Shown here in pieces: positions 3,175 to 30,323 of a stretch of DNA of 39,103 bases. Each line of letters starts with the position of its first letter. Position 1 is the first letter of the stretch. This DNA is from a virus. Where the stretch lies: the IMG/VR virus record IMGVR_UViG_3300027859_000040, positions 1 to 39,103 of that record; one strand, 5' to 3'. Under the pieces are notes generated by a model. The model did not search any database and was not told the DNA's origin. It saw only the letters and a program-made list of their open reading frames with translations. The translations under genes were made by a program, and so were the position numbers.

Positions 3175-4125
3175 TTATTGGTCTAACAGATCGAACAAGC
3201 TGGTTTGAGCACCGCTACGCTCTTGGTGCTGCAAGTGTTTAACCGCCTGGTGGTAGTAAGTTGGGTGCAGCTCGGTGCCAATAAATTTGCGCTTCATGCT
3301 TAACGCGCTAACACCTTCCGACCCGATGCCCATAAATGGCGACCATACTACGTCACCTTCGTTCGTATACATTTCAATGCCGCGCTTAGTGATGTTCATT
3401 GGCATAGGGCATAAGTGCTTTTCTGCTTTTTCGTCAGCGGCCTGCTTAACATTCAGCACGTCAGTCGCTGGCAAATCATAATCGCCACGGCCACTCTGGT
3501 TGGATCCATATGCATTCCAGATTGGCGATGCCAGATCTTGCCATGCTTTCAGCGGCACCTCCGATGGCGGATGCGTTACGGGGCGCACTAGATCCTCTTC
3601 GCCATCCTTCGCCCATTTTCGATAAACCATTAAATACTCAGGCATTCCTACGCGGCAGAACGTGGCGTCACTCTTGAATGTTTTCCATAGTAATCCGTGC
3701 GCGTTGGTTTTGCTGCGCTCCAATACCGGGTCTCTAAAAATAGTGATACGGCACTGCAAATCAAAACCTTCCTCCAAATGTACTCGTGTACACATGTCGC
3801 TAAATGGCCGAATCCCAGACGTCCCGCGCTCGCTACTCCCCTGGTAATAAACCAAGTCTTTTACATGAATCGCTGTGCAGCGACCGGGTCGCAGGGCACG
3901 GAATTTTTCGCGCACCAAGTAGCGATATTGCTCTATAAACTCTTCATCTGAGTCAACGTTTCCCATATCAGCAATCGACTCGGAATAAACGTAGAGTGAG
4001 CTAAACGGCGGGCTATAAATTGAAAAATCAATAGAGTTGTCAGGTAACGATTTGGCAAACTCTACACAATCAGAGTGATAAGCGGCCCAATCGGTGCCTT
4101 TATCTTGATTCATTACGTTTTGCAT
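3175..4125 (-). CDS. DNA methyltransferase (N6-adenine/N4-cytosine, beta-type order)
   Basis: 316 aa from the ATG at 4125, which has GGAG six bases upstream; an ATG at 4131 is too close to it. The catalytic motif IV appears early as YSPPF (about 37-41) and the SAM-binding motif I-like FMGIGSEG near residue 260, so the motif order is that of the beta group (N6_N4 methylase fold). It transfers a methyl group from SAM to an adenine or cytosine base in DNA. The neighbouring SNF2-type helicase is separated by about 9 bases. A phage methylase without a cognate restriction enzyme usually protects phage DNA or marks it. Recognition site cannot be read from the sequence. Confidence 0.88.
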   Translation of the reverse strand: MQNVMNQDKGTDWAAYHSDCVEFAKSLPDNSIDFSIYSPPFSSLYVYSESIADMGNVDSDEEFIEQYRYLVREKFRALRPGRCTAIHVKDLVYYQGSSERGTSGIRPFSDMCTRVHLEEGFDLQCRITIFRDPVLERSKTNAHGLLWKTFKSDATFCRVGMPEYLMVYRKWAKDGEEDLVRPVTHPPSEVPLKAWQDLASPIWNAYGSNQSGRGDYDLPATDVLNVKQAADEKAEKHLCPMPMNITKRGIEMYTNEGDVVWSPFMGIGSEGVSALSMKRKFIGTELHPTYYHQAVKHLQHQERSGAQTSLFDLLDQ

Positions 4126-4134
4126 TGTCATCTC

Positions 4135-5505
4135 CTATAACCAGTTCGGTAATTGTGCATTTTCAGTGGGTTGGTATGCATGCTTGACGTGTTTTTCAAG
4201 CACTTCACGTTTCATTGCGTCAAACATCTCGCGCTTCATTGTTTCATGTTCGTCGCGCTTTCGCTTGATGGTCTGCCATATCGCTAGCTCGGTTTCTGCC
4301 ATTGCGATATGTGCATGAACTTCGCGCTGCTGACCGAATCGGTAGAAGCGGCGAATCGCCTGATAGTACATCTCATAGCTGAACGATAGTCCGACAAACG
4401 CCGTTCTTGCGCAATGCTGCCAGTTGAGTCCGTAGCCTGCAATTGAGGGCTTGCTGACAAGTTGCTTTATATCACCGTTGGTAAAAGCGTTTAGCCGCTC
4501 CTCTTTCATTTCCGGGGGCATTTTTCCGTTGACTTCAATCGCGTCAGGCAATAGGCGCATGATTGCCTCCGCATCATAATCGGTCTCTACCCATATCATC
4601 CACGGTTCATCAGGTTCTGCGCTGACGACTTCTGCTATTTTTGCGGCCCGGTCGTTTGCTGTGAGTCGTTTTTCTTTATGTATACCCGTCGCATTGGTGT
4701 TGGTCATGCGGAACAGCTCGCCCTCTGCCGCTCCTTCCGTCATGTCTGTTTCCACGAGGTGCATGTGCTCATGAAGCTTTGGCAGGTTATAGCCATGATC
4801 TTCATAGCCCAGGTCTGACGGTTTTCCAACGCAGCGCGCCCATGAGGCCACCCAGCTCCAAAAAGGCTTGACGCCGTGCCGCTTTAGGCGGTATTTGCCC
4901 ATCTGTTTTTGATCTGCAATAAAAAACCGTGCCAACATCTCATTAGATGCCATTGCGCCTGTGAACTGGCTGTGCTGACCTAGCTCCATGTGGTCATTGG
5001 GCGCAGGTGTGGCTGTCGCAGCTAATCGCCAGCGCATATCATTAGAGAACTCCATTAGTCCGCGGCTTATTTTTCCGTTAAACGATTTAACAATGCTGGA
5101 TTCGTCCAGCACAATTCCGCCAAATGATTGACGGTCAAACTTCCCCAAGCGTTCGTAGTTGGTGATATAGATGCCCGCTCCGTTAATATCCCCTTGGTCT
5201 CTCGCCAGCGTTACGTCGATGCCAAATCGCTGCCCCTCCCGTTGGTGCTGAAGACCTACTGCAAGGGGTGCAAAAAAAATCACTGGCTTATTGATGTGCT
5301 CGACAATGCACCGAGCCCATTCCAATTCGACTAGGGTTTTTCCGAGTCCTGTGTCCAGGAATGCCGCACACCTGCCAGCTCTTAGCAGGAAGTTGACCAC
5401 GTCGCGCTGGTGTGGGAACAGGTTTTTTGAAAGCTCAGGCAGGTCTGCCATGCCTGAAGGTAGCGCCTTGAACTCTTTTCGTTTTAAAAATTCGTGATAC
5501 TCCAT
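4135..5505 (-). CDS. SNF2-type DEAD/DEAH helicase/translocase
   Basis: 456 aa from the ATG at 5505, preceded by AGGAG. Walker A is DTGLGKT (51-57), the Walker B/DExx box is LDESS, motif III is AATATPAPND and motif VI is RRFYRFGQQREV near the C-terminus, the arrangement of SNF2/RAD54-like DNA translocases. ATP hydrolysis would drive movement on double-stranded DNA. It lies directly upstream of the methyltransferase in the same operon, a pairing seen in many siphoviruses, and may help the methylase or replication/recombination by clearing bound protein. Conventional helicase C-terminal motifs are present but shorter than in cellular SNF2 proteins. Confidence 0.85.
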   Translation of the reverse strand: MEYHEFLKRKEFKALPSGMADLPELSKNLFPHQRDVVNFLLRAGRCAAFLDTGLGKTLVELEWARCIVEHINKPVIFFAPLAVGLQHQREGQRFGIDVTLARDQGDINGAGIYITNYERLGKFDRQSFGGIVLDESSIVKSFNGKISRGLMEFSNDMRWRLAATATPAPNDHMELGQHSQFTGAMASNEMLARFFIADQKQMGKYRLKRHGVKPFWSWVASWARCVGKPSDLGYEDHGYNLPKLHEHMHLVETDMTEGAAEGELFRMTNTNATGIHKEKRLTANDRAAKIAEVVSAEPDEPWMIWVETDYDAEAIMRLLPDAIEVNGKMPPEMKEERLNAFTNGDIKQLVSKPSIAGYGLNWQHCARTAFVGLSFSYEMYYQAIRRFYRFGQQREVHAHIAMAETELAIWQTIKRKRDEHETMKREMFDAMKREVLEKHVKHAYQPTENAQLPNWL

Positions 5506-5584
5506 AACCGCTCCTAGTTGTGTTGCCTTGCCTGTCAAATACTGCCACCCCTAGCGCGGAGTGGCTAATTGGTTTTTTCTATCG
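5506..5584. other. Short gene-free gap with hairpin
   Basis: This gap between two minus-strand genes contains GCCACCC...GAGTGGC, a 7-bp inverted repeat with one wobble pair at about 5545-5566. On the plus strand it is followed at a distance by TTTTTT. It may be a weak terminator or a processing site that lowers expression of the SNF2 gene relative to the upstream genes. Confidence 0.3.
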
Positions 5585-6001
5585 TTATGATTGGGTTGAT
5601 AGCCAATCGCTAAACGCCTGCCATGCCGCTTCCCATCCTAGCGCCACACAGACGAAAGCCCCGGCGCTATGCGCTGCCTCAAGATATTCCACCTGCCCAT
5701 CCTGCCAACTGCACTTGGTATGGTCGCGACGTTTTAGCTCACACACAAACGAGGTAGCGCCTGGAATAACGATGTCTGACGCCCCTACAGACATGCCTTC
5801 GGCCTTTTTCTTGTCAATGCTGCTATGCTGTCCGCCGATTAGCTGGCCCTCGTTGCGTGGATGAAGCGCTATGCGCCCGTAGCTATCGGGGTATTTTGAG
5901 CGTAGCTGGTTGAAAAATGTAATCTGCTCAGCAGACTCAAGGGGGCACTTGCCCCGAAAGCTGGCATCGCCGTAGACGGGTAGCCAATCTGGAAATTTCA
6001 T
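5585..6001 (-). CDS. VRR-NUC domain nuclease
   Basis: 138 aa, the size of a stand-alone VRR-NUC protein of the PD-(D/E)XK superfamily. Visible catalytic features are the early Glu/Gln (ESAEQITFFNQL, about 23-34), GASDIVIPG (about 73-81) and CELKRRD (about 87-93), followed by WQDGQVEYLE. Such nucleases are structure-specific or Holliday-junction endonucleases. The ATG overlaps the stop of the helicase gene (ATGA at 5998-6001), so the two are co-translated and probably act together in replication or recombination. Confidence 0.88.
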   Translation of the reverse strand: MKFPDWLPVYGDASFRGKCPLESAEQITFFNQLRSKYPDSYGRIALHPRNEGQLIGGQHSSIDKKKAEGMSVGASDIVIPGATSFVCELKRRDHTKCSWQDGQVEYLEAAHSAGAFVCVALGWEAAWQAFSDWLSTQS

Positions 6002-7815
6002 TCAATCCCCCTTACCTCGAAAAATTTTGATCCGCGCTTCTTGGCGAACGCAATTGTGGTTGGTCGTGTCGCATCGCTAAAGCTATCGATAATGGCCTGA
6101 TTGTCTGGCAGTGTTTCGCAAAACACCGCTTGGCACCAATCAGCCGCCCGTTTACGCATCCAGTGGCTGTTATGCTCGGGTGCAATGTAGTCGTACAAGT
6201 GATGCGGGTGTTCGTCCACGTCATAGCGAACCTTGATCATCGGGATTCCCGAGCTACTGGTATGCTCAACCGCGAACCATCCGGTAATAGGCGCAATGCG
6301 CAGACGGTACGGATCGGAGGCCATTTTAATAGCTTCCTCGCGTAGCTTTTCGTTCGGGTCGATGATCTCGGCTTTGCATGTTGTGCAATAACGCGCCGCT
6401 ATATCGTTTTCACCGCCGCACTCCGGGCACTCTTTATAGCTCCATTTGTGCCCGCATTGGGTGTGGTGGCCTGCAATCAAAACTTCACCTTGGCAGCGCC
6501 TGCCGTAATGCGCTGGCAACGGCTGGCCTTCGGCTACTTCAATCCGCTGGCCTGCCAAATCGGTAAAGTAGCCCTCATCGTCAATGCCAAATCCTTCGTC
6601 GTTTTTGCGTGCGCCGAAGGTGTTGATATATGAACACATCGGGCACTTGACTTGCATTGGCTCGCTAGGCGTTTGCCGCTTGGCGCGAATATCCGGTTCA
6701 AACACGTCACCGCCGGGACAGTGGCGCTCGATGTTTTCGGCATAGTCCAAAATCAGGCAGTCTTTTTTGCCGTCATGCAGTCGCAGTCCACGACCGATAA
6801 TTTGTTGCAGTAAAGACACCGATTCCGTGGCGCGCATGATTGCCACTACGTCAACGTGTGGCGCATCAAAGCCTGTGGTTAGCACCGAAACGTTGACCAG
6901 GTACTTGACCCGCTGCGCTTTAAAGTCCGTCAGTATTTGCCGCCGCTCTTTTTTGTCAGTACCACCCGTCACAATGCGCGACAGCGACGGCGGCAACGAT
7001 TCCATGATCTCTTGGGCGTGCTGCACCGTGGCAGCAAATATCATTACCCCGTATCGGTTCTGAGATTGGTTTACAATGTCAGCCACGATAGCGCTGGTCT
7101 TGCGCCCACGGCCAACAAACGCGGCATCGACGGTGACAGATGACCATTGGCCGTTGCGGTTTTGCGTTAGCCCGCTGGTGTCGTAATGCTCTGCCGTTTG
7201 CTCAAAGACGGGTGGCGTTAGGTAGCCCGCGTCGATAAGTTCACGCGCCCCGATACTGTATACCAGCGTGTGAAAAAACGGATCAATCGCCTGCGTTTCG
7301 TCAATCGCGCCATACTGGTAGTGGTTGCCGTAAATGTAGCCGGTGCCCAACCTGAACGGCGTGGCTGATAGGCCTATCACTCGCAATTTAGGGTTTTGAC
7401 TGCGCATGTGATCCACAATTTTCAATAGCGTGGGTGTCACGCCGTGGGCTTCATCAATCACCACGGCGGCAAATTGATTGCCAAACTTGCGCACTTGGTT
7501 CGATATAGTGCCAGGTGTTCCGAAGATTACGTTGTGGCGCATGTCTTTTTTGCCCAGGCTGGCGCTAAAGATACTGGCCTTTTCGCCAGTGGCTAAATAT
7601 TTCTCAAAATTTTGTTCTACCAATTCACTCGAAGGCGCAATGCACAGAATCTTTTTGCCGCTCATGGCGTGAATGCTGGCGGCAACGGCAGCCACTAGCA
7701 GGCTCTTGCCCGACCCAGTAGCCGCTTCTATTAGGCACGGGTCGAGACAATCCTTAATCCAGTCAATTACTGCGTCATGCGCCGCCTGCTGATATGGCCT
7801 TAGTGTGTAGGTCAA
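5998..7815 (-). CDS. DEAD/DEAH-box helicase with zinc-ribbon insert
   Basis: 605 aa superfamily 2 helicase. Motif I AATGSGKS (31-38), motif II IDEAH, motif III GLSATPFR, motifs V-VI in VLTTGFDAPHVDVVAIMR and QQIIGRGLRLHDG. After the two RecA-like domains come three Cys-rich pairs (CPMCSY, then CQGEVLIAGHHTQCGH, CPECG...CTTC), indicating zinc ribbons that probably touch nucleic acid. It resembles the phage replication/recombination helicases related to UvsW/RecG-like branch migration enzymes. It is flanked by and overlaps two nuclease genes (ATGA on each side), forming a nuclease-helicase-nuclease set. Confidence 0.9.
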   Translation of the reverse strand: MTYTLRPYQQAAHDAVIDWIKDCLDPCLIEAATGSGKSLLVAAVAASIHAMSGKKILCIAPSSELVEQNFEKYLATGEKASIFSASLGKKDMRHNVIFGTPGTISNQVRKFGNQFAAVVIDEAHGVTPTLLKIVDHMRSQNPKLRVIGLSATPFRLGTGYIYGNHYQYGAIDETQAIDPFFHTLVYSIGARELIDAGYLTPPVFEQTAEHYDTSGLTQNRNGQWSSVTVDAAFVGRGRKTSAIVADIVNQSQNRYGVMIFAATVQHAQEIMESLPPSLSRIVTGGTDKKERRQILTDFKAQRVKYLVNVSVLTTGFDAPHVDVVAIMRATESVSLLQQIIGRGLRLHDGKKDCLILDYAENIERHCPGGDVFEPDIRAKRQTPSEPMQVKCPMCSYINTFGARKNDEGFGIDDEGYFTDLAGQRIEVAEGQPLPAHYGRRCQGEVLIAGHHTQCGHKWSYKECPECGGENDIAARYCTTCKAEIIDPNEKLREEAIKMASDPYRLRIAPITGWFAVEHTSSSGIPMIKVRYDVDEHPHHLYDYIAPEHNSHWMRKRAADWCQAVFCETLPDNQAIIDSFSDATRPTTIAFAKKRGSKFFEVRGIE

Positions 7816-8846
7816 AACGGAATCTCCTTATCCCAATCAATGCCATTCTCATCTACTGTGCTAAATGGCGCATCAATCGGCTTGGCGTCGAATGCTTTGG
7901 CGATGGCCATGTAGGTCGGATCATTCAGCATTCCGCCATCAAGCGAGCGCTTCATTTCATAGCTATTAAATACGGGCTTAGTTGGATGCTCCGCACCTGT
8001 GGCGGCCATGCAAAAATGCTCATATTCGACCATCGGCACGCTGCCATCGACGTTGACCATCGTGAAACCCATGCCTTCCATCAACTGCGGGTGCATAATA
8101 TGCTTGTCGCATGGCGTTTCGCATCCGTCGCTGCTGTGCGGGCATTCAAACTTACCGTCGTTGACGCTCACGTTAGCGCAGGTACGGCAATCAATTTCCG
8201 GCAACGTCTTGCCTTCGCAAACGCTCTGGTGCTGGCAGAAACGGCACTTATAAGATGTCGTAGGTGCCGGGTAAGCGTCGCTGGCAATCAATCTCTCTAT
8301 GCGCTCTGTTTGCAGTTGCGCGTAGGGTTTTTCGTAATGCACTTCTTCGGTGTGTAGCTCGCTGGTGTTTTTGTTGATGACAACAAACAGCGCCTTGGTA
8401 AGCTGGTTGCCTTTTGCGCTCAATTGAGCGCTGTGGTGCATGTAGAGCTGCACCTGGGCGAAGTAGTTGTCAGGCACACCTGTTTTCAGCCATGCTTTAA
8501 AACGGCTGTCGTTGGCGGTTTTCATTTCCAGTAGTTGAAACCCATCGGGTAGCACCGCGATGCCGTCAATGTGGCCTAGGCTGGTGCCATAGCTATTTTT
8601 CAGCGCGGCTTCACGCATGCCGATTTTAACGCCAGACGTTTCCAGCCACTTGACCATGCACTCCTCTAGCGCGTGGCCTATGTCAAATGTGCGTTGCGTT
8701 TGTGGCTCCACCCATTGCGGGCTAGCGCGGCGTAGTGATAACCACATCTTGCGGTCACACTCGCTCCACATGCTGGCGCTAATGCTCTTAATTGCGCGGT
8801 GCTTTTGGTTCGATGCCATCGCCTTGTCTATTGTGAGTGTGTCCAT
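7812..8846 (-). CDS. PD-(D/E)XK nuclease, Cas4/RecB-like with probable Fe-S cluster
   Basis: 344 aa. The nuclease core shows GHIDG (91-95), LEMKT with E-x-K at 107-109, and the RecB-type Q motif QVQLYM. One cysteine before the core (C30) and three after it (CRFCQHQSVC, about residue 200) match the spacing used by Cas4 and AddB-type nucleases to hold an iron-sulfur cluster. A second Cys-rich patch (CRTC...CPHSSDGCETPC) follows, and the last ~90 residues are of unknown fold. Likely a single-strand exonuclease that processes ends for recombination with the neighbouring RecA-like ATPase and ssDNA-binding protein. The start overlaps nothing, the end overlaps the helicase start. Confidence 0.85.
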   Translation of the reverse strand: MDTLTIDKAMASNQKHRAIKSISASMWSECDRKMWLSLRRASPQWVEPQTQRTFDIGHALEECMVKWLETSGVKIGMREAALKNSYGTSLGHIDGIAVLPDGFQLLEMKTANDSRFKAWLKTGVPDNYFAQVQLYMHHSAQLSAKGNQLTKALFVVINKNTSELHTEEVHYEKPYAQLQTERIERLIASDAYPAPTTSYKCRFCQHQSVCEGKTLPEIDCRTCANVSVNDGKFECPHSSDGCETPCDKHIMHPQLMEGMGFTMVNVDGSVPMVEYEHFCMAATGAEHPTKPVFNSYEMKRSLDGGMLNDPTYMAIAKAFDAKPIDAPFSTVDENGIDWDKEIPF

Positions 8847-27343: not shown

Positions 27344-28378
27344 ATGCGCTATTTTGACGAAAAGCTAATCACTAATTCCAAGCTGCACAAGCAGTGGTGG
27401 GATGAGCAAAACCTAGAGCGTGAAGCATGGCGTCGTGCCGAGGCGTCCGTTCTCAGCGTTAACGAGGCCGCACTGCTGCCGCGTGACGCTTGGCGCTCGC
27501 TGGATGATATTACCCGCCGCGTGATGCGTAACGACGAAGGTCAAGCCTACATGGCCGACCTGATGCCGTTAGCGCGTGCAGTCAACATCGGCAAGCTGGT
27601 ACACGTAAACCGCGTATCAAGCGACGCTGGCCGCGTTATCCGCACGATGACAGGCCAAGAGCCTGCGTCTCTGGATAAAGTGCAGTACGACTACCGTGGC
27701 ACGCCCGTACCGATGTTCTTAACGGGCTACAGCCGTAACTGGCGCGAATGGAACACGCTGCAAAGCGAAGGCTTCGACACGCTGGCAGACGACCAGGAAG
27801 CCGCCGTTGCAGGTATCCGCCAGGATATGGCGCAATACGTGCTGAACGGTGATTCCAGCATCGTCACTGAGGGCTACGTGGGCTACGGTATCAAAAACCA
27901 CCCGCTCACCAATCAGATTGACCTGGGCGCGTCTGGCGTCAACGTTGACTTCACTGGTGCCACCCCTGCTGAATGGGAAGCGTTTATCAGCCAGACGCTT
28001 GGCGGCGCGATGGACGACAACTACATCGGCGTTGGCGTTAATATGTACGTCTCGCCAGAGATTGGCCGCAACCTTGACCTAGGTTGGTCTGCCCCCGCCG
28101 AGTTCAAGATGGGCAGCCGTCGCGAATGGATTGAGCGCAGCCGTCGCGTTAACAAGGTCGTCGTAACGTATGAGCTAACTGGCAACGAAATGATGTTCTT
28201 CGTACCCGATGCTCAATACATTCGCCCGCTGGTAGGCATGGCAGTCAGCACTATCGCCATTCCGCGCAACATGCCGCGTGCGAACTACAACTTCGACGTG
28301 TCCGGAGCGATGGGCATCGAGATCCGTGGTGACTTCAACAGCCGTTCCGGTGTGTTCTATGCCAGTGCCGTGACCTGA
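27344..28378 (+). CDS. Major capsid protein
   Basis: 344 aa, preceded by AGGAG. Sequence features such as LIPRDAWRSLD-like ALLPRDAWRSLDDITRRVMR, LVHVNRVSSDAGRVIRTMTG, GYGIKNHPLTNQ and FEVSGA-like YNFDVSGAMGIEIRGDFNSR match the major capsid proteins (DUF6260/DUF2184-like, HK97 fold) that accompany DUF1073 portals and DUF2213 proteases. The gene position after scaffold and decoration genes and before a strong terminator agrees. Which exact family name applies I cannot verify. Confidence 0.88.
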   Translation: MRYFDEKLITNSKLHKQWWDEQNLEREAWRRAEASVLSVNEAALLPRDAWRSLDDITRRVMRNDEGQAYMADLMPLARAVNIGKLVHVNRVSSDAGRVIRTMTGQEPASLDKVQYDYRGTPVPMFLTGYSRNWREWNTLQSEGFDTLADDQEAAVAGIRQDMAQYVLNGDSSIVTEGYVGYGIKNHPLTNQIDLGASGVNVDFTGATPAEWEAFISQTLGGAMDDNYIGVGVNMYVSPEIGRNLDLGWSAPAEFKMGSRREWIERSRRVNKVVVTYELTGNEMMFFVPDAQYIRPLVGMAVSTIAIPRNMPRANYNFDVSGAMGIEIRGDFNSRSGVFYASAVT

Positions 28379-28401
28379 TAGTTAGCTAGGCACCACACAG
28401 A

Positions 28402-28428
28402 AACCCCGGCTTAGGCTGGGGTTTTTTT
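28402..28428 (+). terminator. Rho-independent terminator after the capsid gene
   Basis: AACCCC (28402-28407) pairs with GGGGTT (28418-28423), with an inner GGC/GCT pairing, followed by seven T. It isolates the capsid operon from the RNA/RAMP-like cassette that follows. Confidence 0.85.
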
Positions 28429-28440
28429 ATCGCGTGGGTA

Positions 28441-28469
28441 TTGACGCAGTAAGATAGACGCGCTAAATT
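28441..28469 (+). promoter_or_regulatory. Sigma-70 promoter of the structured-RNA cassette
   Basis: TTGACG (28441-28446), a 17-base spacer, and TAAATT (28464-28469). It lies just behind the capsid terminator and would start transcription near 28476, about 485 bases before the first start codon, an exceptionally long leader for a phage. Confidence 0.7.
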
Positions 28470-28475
28470 GAACAC

Positions 28476-28582
28476 ATAACGCGGGGTCAGAGCCGCTAAG
28501 AAATTGGGAATAAATGAGCTGCTTATTTTATCCGGTGGGTGCCCAAGCCCTTCTCTGACCCGGTTAAATGAGCAGCTTTTTT
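28476..28582 (+). ncRNA. Leader RNA with two interleaved helices and a T run
   Basis: GGGTCAGAG (28484-28492) pairs with CTCTGACCC (28553-28561), and AGCTGCT (28517-28523) pairs with AGCAGCT (28571-28577), which is followed by six T (28577-28582). The order A-B-A'-B' means the two helices form either a pseudoknot or two exclusive states. The second helix plus T run is terminator-like, so this could be an attenuator that decides whether the pentamer units are transcribed. Confidence 0.55.
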
Positions 28583-28590
28583 GTGCCCGC

Positions 28591-28709
28591 GAGGCTTGGT
28601 CGGGTGCGGCTAGGCGGGGTCTGGCGAGGCAGGGCGCGGAATGGCAAGGGCTGTAATCAGCCGGTGATACATTGGCAACAGTGTTGATCCGGGTGGCGAT
28701 AGCTATCAC
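28591..28709 (+). repeat. Pentamer-array unit 1
   Basis: Twelve exactly phased pentamers (28591-28650), mostly NNGGC, the last being AAGGG. Then GGCTG-TAAT-CAGCC (28649-28662), a small tetraloop hairpin, a possible ATTGGCA/TGTTGAT stem (28671-28688), the motif ATCCGG-GTG (from 28687) and an outer GTGATA/TATCAC pairing (28664-28709). Unit 2 begins on the next base. Confidence 0.75.
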
Positions 28710-28826
28710 AGGGCGCGGCACGACGTGGCGGGACGTGGCGAGGCATGGCGAGGCGGGGCATGACAAGGGCTGCAAAGCGTCTAGCATCTGTTTCAGGTGT
28801 TAGGCGGTGGGTAGCCACCGCGCGGA
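28710..28826 (+). repeat. Pentamer-array unit 2
   Basis: Twelve phased pentamers again (28710-28769), ending ATGAC AAGGG. Next comes GCT-GCAA-AGC (28769-28778) with a GNRA-type loop, then a 12-bp hairpin with a TTT loop (28779-28805, three G-U pairs) and GCGGTGG-GTAG-CCACCGC (28804-28821). The same order of elements as in units 1 and 3. Confidence 0.75.
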
Positions 28827-28936
28827 GAGGCAAGACACGGCCAGGCCTGGCGAGGCGCGGCGAGGACGGGCAACGCAACGCAAGGGCTGTTTACAGCGGT
28901 TGGCATCCGGTTTGGGTGCCCTCCGGTGCAAGCACC
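28827..28936 (+). repeat. Pentamer-array unit 3
   Basis: Twelve phased pentamers (28827-28886; a thirteenth, GCGGA, may precede them), ending AAGGG. Then GCTG-TTTA-CAGC (28886-28897), a 7-bp hairpin GGCATCC/GGGTGCC with loop GGTTT (28902-28920) and a final GGTG-CAAG-CACC (28925-28936). It ends about 25 bases before the start codon of the RAMP-like gene. Confidence 0.75.
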
Positions 28937-28961
28937 AAAACACACTCAGAGAAGGCATATC

Positions 28962-29531
28962 ATGGAAATTATCAAAGTACGAATTACGGGCAACCGCCCG
29001 CTACTAATGCACAGCGACAAGTTCGCCGACCCGCTAAACCCGCTAACCAAAGCGCACAAAGAGCTAACCGGGAAGCGGAAAAAGTCAGATGACGACCACG
29101 AAGCTATCGCCAAAAGCGAATGGGCGGGTGGTATGTATTTTGACGACGACATGGGGCCATACGTCCCCGGCGTCAACATAGAGGCCGCGATGTGGCAGGC
29201 GGCAAGCTGTCAAAAGCTAGGTACTCAGCTAAAGCGCAGCGTTGAAGTGCTAGATGAGCGATGTAAGCTGGAATATGACGGCCCGAGAACAATGTCTGCA
29301 ATGTGGGACGCAGGTATGTATGACGCTCGCAGCGTAAAGGTAACGACTAGCCGTTTGATGCGCTACCGCCCCATATTTAAAAAATGGTCGCTGGTCTGCG
29401 AAATTATGTATGACGAAACCAGCATTGACCGCTCACAAGTAATGAAGTGCCTAAAAGACGCAGGAATGTACTGCGGTATTGGCGACTACCGCCCAAAATT
29501 TGGCCGATTCGACGTTGAGGAGGTGAAGTAA
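28962..29531 (+). CDS. Phage protein with RAMP/Cas7-like features
   Basis: 189 aa from the ATG at 28962, chosen because GAGAAGG lies eight bases upstream; an in-frame GTG at 28926 falls inside the last RNA hairpin. It belongs to a widespread phage family: IIKVRITGNRPLLMHSDKFA at the N-terminus, KAHKELTGKRKKSDDDHEAI, GPYVPGVNIEAAMWQAA and CGIGDYRPKFGRFDVEEV at the C-terminus. A beta-strand start, a strand-helix-strand near the end and the final glycine-rich loop recall RAMP folds such as Cas7, but this is inference. It is directly downstream of the pentamer units and shares their promoter, so it may bind that RNA. Confidence 0.7.
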   Translation: MEIIKVRITGNRPLLMHSDKFADPLNPLTKAHKELTGKRKKSDDDHEAIAKSEWAGGMYFDDDMGPYVPGVNIEAAMWQAASCQKLGTQLKRSVEVLDERCKLEYDGPRTMSAMWDAGMYDARSVKVTTSRLMRYRPIFKKWSLVCEIMYDETSIDRSQVMKCLKDAGMYCGIGDYRPKFGRFDVEEVK

Positions 29532-29992
29532 TGGACGCATGGCTGGAGCACGCAATCAATGAGTACGACCGGACTAATCACCAAGATGGAGATCTGCTAT
29601 CGCATGACTGGCTAGCATATGCCTTGCAATTAGAAAAGCCGCGCCATTTGGATGAGGTACAGGAAAAGCAGTGGCAGGCCATGAGCCGCGTGGACGCGCT
29701 GAGGGATTATTTGCTAGTAGATCGGCAAGTTGCACTGCAAAGCGTTAGGGGCCAAGGTTATAGGATTGTCCCACCCAGCGAGCAGGCGCGCTATGCTGCC
29801 GAGCAGGCGATGCGTCAAGTGGCAAAAGGGTTGCAAAAGGGGAGTAAGATACTCGCGCATACCAGGGTTGCAGAGCTATCGGACGAGCAGCGCAGGCAGC
29901 ATACTGACACCGAGGTTAAGTTGTCTGGAATAGGTCAAATGATAAAACGCCAGAAGCGTGATGTTTTCGCTCTCTTCTCGCCTAGCAAATGA
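29531..29992 (+). CDS. Hypothetical protein, possible winged-helix
   Basis: 153 aa. ATG at 29531 overlaps the last base of the upstream stop (TAATG) and GAGG is close by. VDALRDYLLVDRQVALQSVR followed by GQGYRIVPPSEQAR (about 56-90) looks like a helix-turn-helix plus wing; the C-terminal part is basic (IKRQKRDVFALFSPSK). It is the partner of the RAMP-like gene, with a terminator right after it. Its basic character suggests nucleic-acid binding. Exact role unknown. Confidence 0.65.
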   Translation: MDAWLEHAINEYDRTNHQDGDLLSHDWLAYALQLEKPRHLDEVQEKQWQAMSRVDALRDYLLVDRQVALQSVRGQGYRIVPPSEQARYAAEQAMRQVAKGLQKGSKILAHTRVAELSDEQRRQHTDTEVKLSGIGQMIKRQKRDVFALFSPSK

Positions 29993-30000
29993 CCAAGTCG

Positions 30001-30024
30001 GCCCGCCACAGCGCGGGCTTTTTT
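30001..30024 (+). terminator. Rho-independent terminator closing the RNA/RAMP-like cassette
   Basis: GCCCGC (30001-30006) pairs with GCGGGC (30013-30018), then six T. Together with the terminator at 28402 it makes 28441-30024 a closed transcription unit. Confidence 0.85.
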
Positions 30025-30025
30025 G

Positions 30026-30034
30026 TGCTAAAAT
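30026..30034 (+). promoter_or_regulatory. Extended -10 promoter of the connector genes
   Basis: TGC-TAAAAT, starting two bases after the terminator T run and 31 bases (from the -10) before the ATG at 30060. Same type as the other TGC-extended elements. Confidence 0.45.
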
Positions 30035-30059
30035 CAGGGAAACATCTTAGGAGCCATTT

Positions 30060-30323
30060 ATGCTAATCGAAATTACCCGCCGTGGCGTCTATCGCAGCGC
30101 TGGCGAAATGCTGCCCATTGGCACGCAGGTTGAAGTGCCGGACGATTTTACCGGATGGGCGAACAAATACCGTGTCGTGTCTAGTAGCGCTGGTAAGACG
30201 TTAGAGGTAGCCACGCCAAAACGCCCGCGCAAGAAACGCGAGCCAAAGCAAGAGCAAGAGCAAGGGCAAGAGCCGGAACAGCCTAGCTTAGACACTGAGG
30301 CCGAGTCTGATGATAACGACTGA
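30060..30323 (+). CDS. Small protein with charged tail, head-tail region
   Basis: 87 aa after AGGAG. The first 50 residues (EITRRGVYRSAGEMLPIGTQ, VEVPDDFTGWANKYRVV) look like a small beta-barrel; the rest is a low-complexity basic then acidic tail (KRPRKKREPK, then EQEQGQEPEQPS). This type of short protein is often found directly after the capsid gene in siphoviruses. Overlaps the next gene by 14 bases. Confidence 0.65.
   Translation: MLIEITRRGVYRSAGEMLPIGTQVEVPDDFTGWANKYRVVSSSAGKTLEVATPKRPRKKREPKQEQEQGQEPEQPSLDTEAESDDND

Follow-up and report, generated by a model that had tools for sequence, protein, structure and literature searches.

We analyzed a 39,103-nt stretch of viral DNA (IMG/VR record IMGVR_UViG_3300027859_000040, positions 1 to 39,103), hereafter the window, which is a virus record in itself, without surrounding genome. 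Between 28378 and 30060 it carries a conserved leader, three arrays of phased NNGGC pentamers, each followed by a structured 3' tail, a gene for a RAMP protein (vipr), and a probable accessory gene (vap) (Table 1). Elsewhere it has genes of a tailed phage, including those for primase, helicases, terminase, portal, and tail proteins. The early region (3175-8846, minus strand) holds two helicase-like genes, a methyltransferase-like gene, and a gene for a Cas4-domain exonuclease (phrog_1990). No DNA similarity to phage records was found for the array region and the first 25 kb.

Table 1. Features of the array-bearing cassette (positions in the window)
Feature	Position	Strand	Basis or remark
Hairpin and T run, CCCCGGC-TTAG-GCTGGGG-TTTTTTT	28401..28428	+	Read by eye; absent from the list of the terminator scan
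Sigma-70-like promoter candidate, TTGACG-17-TAAATT	28441..28469	+	Promoter scan
Leader RNA, conserved, structured, ending TTTTTT	28482..28582	+	119/119 aligned bases identical to L006
vrRNA 1 repeat array	28591..28650	+	Guide GA TT CG GC TA GG CT GA AG GC AT, then constant AAGGG
vrRNA 1 3' tail	28648..28709	+	GGGCTGTAATCAGCC hairpin, then longer hairpin; alignment and covariation
vrRNA 2 repeat array	28710..28769	+	Guide AG GC AC GT GG GT GA AT GA GG AT, then constant AAGGG
vrRNA 2 3' tail	28767..28821	+	Tail alignment and covariation
vrRNA 3 repeat array	28822..28886	+	13 pentamers with GCGGA at 28822; guide GC GA AA AC CA CT GA GC GA CG (AA AA), then constant AAGGG
vrRNA 3 3' tail	28884..28940	+	Tail alignment and covariation
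vipr, RAMP protein, 189 aa, phrog_4652	28962..29531	+	C-terminal glycine-rich loop GIGDYRPKFGRF
vipr-accessory gene (vap1-like), 153 aa, phrog_5926	29531..29992	+	Sequence similarity
Intrinsic terminator closing the cassette	30000..30029	+	7-pair stem (6 G-C), then TTTTTGTGCT

Sinorhizobium phage phiLM21 has a homologous capsid gene (55% identity), and a relative of the window gene at 30060-30323 starts 58 bases after it. Because the genes that flank the cassette (28378-30060) adjoin in phiLM21, the cassette appears to have been inserted between head genes as a transcription unit of its own. The hairpin at its upstream end probably terminates the capsid operon. The promoter candidate is weak, since the scan found two promoter-like sites where 1.4 are expected by chance. 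A capsid search in 16 genomes with related vipr genes found nothing.

The three arrays had been predicted from the letters of the DNA at 28591-28650, 28710-28769, and 28827-28886, and their coordinates, phase, AAGGG-CTG ends, and unit-start distances of 119 and 117 bases all proved exact. The phased-pentamer score reaches 24.6 at the arrays; resampling these 310 bases 2000 times under a first-order Markov model gave at most 15.9, and neither strand of the rest of the window exceeds 7.5. The three in-phase arrays are far above chance expectation. G at pentamer positions 3 and 4, claimed for all units, holds throughout unit 1 (12/12), whereas units 2 and 3 have it in only 9/12 pentamers each. 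The count of exactly twelve pentamers per unit hinges on where counting starts, because GCGGA at 28822-28826 fits unit 3 as a 13th pentamer.

We then compared the arrays with those of related loci. Seven viral relatives of the 28962 gene product share 68-72% identity with it, and all seven genes have phased arrays within about 400 bases upstream, which bears out the proposed link between the arrays and a RAMP-like gene. When DNA alone was searched for a pattern of seven NNGGC repeats, with protein information unused, at least 120 viral stretches were returned, many with several arrays; a Vipr-like ORF was detectable by phmmer in 65 of them. From both lines of co-occurrence, the arrays travel with vipr across large evolutionary distances.

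The number twelve is not conserved, because counts vary among the relatives: the arrays of the orthologous locus L006 hold about 11, 14, and 12 pentamers, and in the clade the mode is 11-14, with most arrays at 9-18. Selection on exactly twelve, which the original prediction had put forward, is therefore unsupported. The equal length of 60 bases is partly a coincidence, because array lengths in L006 and the clade differ, yet a limited size range is real. Free variation of length and phase had been named as what would count against the idea; what we found is length changing in whole pentamers within that range, and phase kept.

The comparison with L006 separates fixed from variable positions. 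Beside the unchanged leader, the tails are identical at 196/205 positions and GG is conserved at 57/64, whereas NN is conserved at just 25/64; the length differences are 5 or 10 bases, that is, whole pentamers. Such a pattern marks the guides as exchangeable and the scaffold as fixed. At the DNA level the leader, tails, vipr ends, and vap are mostly 87-100% identical to L006, and the middle of vipr (29164-29463) is 47-65% identical, reading as a mosaic or fast-changing segment within the gene.

Among the loci compared, the leader was found solely in the window, L002, L003, L005, L006, and L008. Long invariant blocks are common to the window, L002, and L008, and the folding z-score is -3.3. The pairing GGGTCAGAG/CTCTGACCC is fully conserved; a further pairing, AGCUGCUUA/UGAGCAGCU, is followed by U6, and its complementarity survives changes in L002. 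Because the two pairings cross, the leader could fold as a pseudoknot or act as an attenuator switch. Rfam scans of the leader and the array region matched no family.

The 3' tails are structured and conserved. An alignment of 39 clade tails has two common helices, GCTG/CAGC followed by a longer hairpin, with 95.4% of the alignment cells paired. Covariation is 0.609, against 0.176 for shuffled alignments and at most 0.127 for slid partners.

The product of vipr matches PDB entry 36pp, 'SUSP1 Vipr protein', with E = 1.3e-44 as a single sequence and E = 1.1e-55 as a profile, and is 40% identical over its full length to ALH47069 of SUSP1. Its AlphaFold model (pLDDT 89) has Csm and Cmr complex subunits, which are Csm3/Cas7-type RAMPs, as best solved matches in Foldseek, and the motif GxGDxRPxFGRF is invariant in the Vipr protein alignment. 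The protein is thus a RAMP with a G-loop, homologous to SUSP1 Vipr; its 189-aa length, taken alone, suggests that it has no second RRM. PADLOC, Pfam, and NCBIfam gave no family match for it. The following gene starts on the last base of vipr (29531). Its product is 38% identical to that of the gene after LESphi2 vipr and 23% identical, a low value (E = 9e-13), to that of the gene after SUSP1 vipr, which we take to be vap1. The families phrog_4652, of unknown function in the PHROG library, and phrog_5926, likewise listed as unknown, now have an annotation: Vipr for the former and probable Vap for the latter.

These parts correspond to the Viral Interference Programmable Repeat (VIPR), described in a preprint of April-June 2026 (PMC13142463). 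A VIPR system, a CRISPR-like phage weapon against rivals, has two kinds of protein, the RAMP protein Vipr and the accessory Vap, together with vrRNAs in which 9-16 YNNGG repeats precede a structured 3' tail; the published tail structure includes a pseudoknot. The vrRNA guides read double-stranded DNA as NNxNNx, and competing phages are repressed (PMC13142463). In SUSP1, changing the NN bases alone is reported to redirect repression to a new DNA site (PMC13142463). Seven types are distinguished, of which type II, the SUSP1/P. fulva kind, combines its Vipr clade with a DNA-binding vap1 (PMC13142463). The window arrays, of 12, 12, and 12-13 repeats, fall within the published range and have conserved GGY and hypervariable NN. 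The original prediction knew of no named element like this, which fails because VIPR and its vrRNAs had been described in 2026 (PMC13142463); the arrays are a further copy of the known VIPR kind, not a new element class. Its idea of one protein subunit per pentamer came close to the model of the preprint (PMC13142463), where RAMP subunits occupy the GGY triplets and display NN.

As a whole, the locus is almost certainly a VIPR cassette, most likely of type II, that would repress rival genes through Vipr-coated vrRNAs. We propose that one transcription unit of about 28476-30029 would yield three vrRNAs, Vipr, and Vap. Each vrRNA would comprise a YNNGG pentamer array and a folded tail, with processing into single vrRNAs as in the published system (PMC13142463). 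Vipr subunits would line up along the array and hold the GGY triplets, leaving the NN dinucleotides exposed to pair with double-stranded DNA as NNxNNx, if assembly and DNA binding follow that model (PMC13142463). The skipped base would mostly be the codon wobble position, and the bound complexes would, again by analogy (PMC13142463), repress genes of competing phages, prophages, or satellites.

A different reading is that the arrays form a regulatory leader, in which the neighboring protein controls its own synthesis by binding its own mRNA once per five bases, much as TRAP binds NAG repeats, and NN are only spacers. In the window and in its relatives the arrays do immediately precede the gene, and fixed GG with a constrained period would suit a repeat-binding protein. 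However, NN differ between orthologous loci while the remainder is frozen, and arrays also occur downstream of the gene in L004, L007, L022, L137, and L138, with L022 having them on both sides. In addition, one guide of the clade decodes to a 22/22 DNA match, described below, and the SUSP1 vrRNAs guide DNA repression (PMC13142463). We consider this reading very unlikely, although autoregulation may exist on top of the VIPR function.

That the arrays are a functionless, slippage-prone GC-rich simple repeat, or act at the DNA level, for instance as an iteron or a recombination site, has an almost vanishing probability. Short tandem repeats are common and the length changes are whole units, but adjacent pentamers differ at NN and are not copies of each other, the phase persists for 60 bases, the tails show RNA covariation, and one protein family is associated with the arrays across very diverse viral contigs. 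The earlier view that neither slippage nor coding sequence accounts for the arrays stands, and they are best described as an RNA-level repeat. The RAMP fold, which is closest to Csm3/Cas7-type subunits, would fit a stray Cas7 beside a CRISPR-like or degenerate CRISPR array. Yet direct repeats with contiguous spacers are replaced here by pentamer arrays, the database searches matched no family, and the sequence match is to Vipr, not Cas7, so that we give this explanation next to no credence.

A Pseudomonas typographi vrRNA (L141:3268-3327), whose Vipr is 49% identical to that of the window, matches L144:1645 at 22/22 NN positions with one base skipped. The target is a putative BRO-type antirepressor gene in an Alcaligenaceae locus, named from the motif EIDGEPWFVGKDVA, and the match covers the codons of its DGEPWFVGKDVA stretch. 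The skipped bases are wobble positions, and wobble-skipping lets one guide potentially hit many synonymous variants. The constant terminal AA is mismatched in this target, which suggests that the final AAGGG lies outside the guide. The match, a single case, independently supports the published one-base-skip code in this clade.

An all-against-all target scan with about 350 guides gave no overall enrichment of skip-1 matches, bar the one 22/22 match, and matches at 17-18 of 20 positions were little or no more frequent than in controls. For the three guides of the window, one of which predicts the NNxNNx target pattern GAnTTnCGnGCnTAnGGnCTnGAnAGnGCnAT, no convincing target was found in viral contigs. 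An exact 10-pentamer scan with guide 2 hit one homologous family of large proteins at 20-21 of 24 positions, which we judged to be chance; 8-pentamer scans with the window guides hit scattered unrelated proteins, often coiled-coil, with no convincing target. Guide 2 had 6 hits with up to 3 mismatches in 201 Halomonadaceae-family genomes, hardly above the 3 for the reversed control, and a P. mendocina guide had no excess in 199 genomes of its genus. Read as codons, guides 1, 2, and 3 give [DE][FL]RAYGL[DE][SR]A[IM], [SR]ATVGV[DE][IM][DE]G[IM], and A[DE][NK]T[HQ]L[DE]A[DE]R, so all three could represent coding sequence. TA is rarer among NN dinucleotides than expected (0.74-0.78 of expectation), which is compatible with codon phasing but weak.

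Among known systems, the Escherichia phage SUSP1 (type II; KT454805; PDB 36pp; PMC13142463) shares with the window a Vipr homologue followed by a vap-like gene, and multiple vrRNAs in which NNGGY pentamers lead into a conserved 3' tail. It belongs to another phage family; its pentamers end in T where those of the window mostly end in C, and it has one vrRNA upstream of vipr and three downstream (PMC13142463), whereas all three of the window lie upstream behind the conserved leader. VIPR-like loci also occur in the Pseudomonas phages LESphi2 and Medea1 and in Pseudomonas and Vreelandella genomes (L130-L134, L136, L139-L141), with the GGGCTG-type tail start and hairpins of the window; these loci probably include the P. 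fulva clade of the preprint (PMC13142463). The gene after vipr in LESphi2 and Medea1 belongs to the vap family of the window. Among the loci compared, those of this type did not show the leader of the window, and their guides are unrelated.

Csm3/Cmr4 (Cas7) of type III CRISPR share with Vipr the RAMP fold, the glycine-rich loop, and, presumably, stepwise coating of a guide RNA, at only about 10-14% sequence identity. The window differs in having no CRISPR array, and in its 5-base step with two read bases. TRAP is likewise a protein multimer on regularly spaced RNA triplets (NAG repeats). We found no sequence or fold link between TRAP and Vipr, and the TRAP spacers carry no target information.

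VIPR is thereby placed in another phage lineage, and independent data back its published anatomy: gapped guides, a frozen scaffold, covarying tails, a RAMP protein, and a one-base-skip code. The window/L006 pair makes guide turnover directly measurable and brings the question of gapped-guide acquisition into sharper focus. Block-copying from a contiguous target cannot produce a gapped guide, so a dedicated guide-writing process may exist; that the NN bases are actively renewed by such a writing or diversification process, which nobody has described, seems to us unlikely.

Very long in-phase arrays without intervening tails were observed in L017 (6309-7013), L046 (1097-1981, minus strand), and L086 (1086-1460), with 141, 177, and 75 pentamers, respectively, of which 79-91% are NNGGY. 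They are far above the 9-16 repeats of the preprint and possibly correspond to its 'staggered' arrays (PMC13142463).
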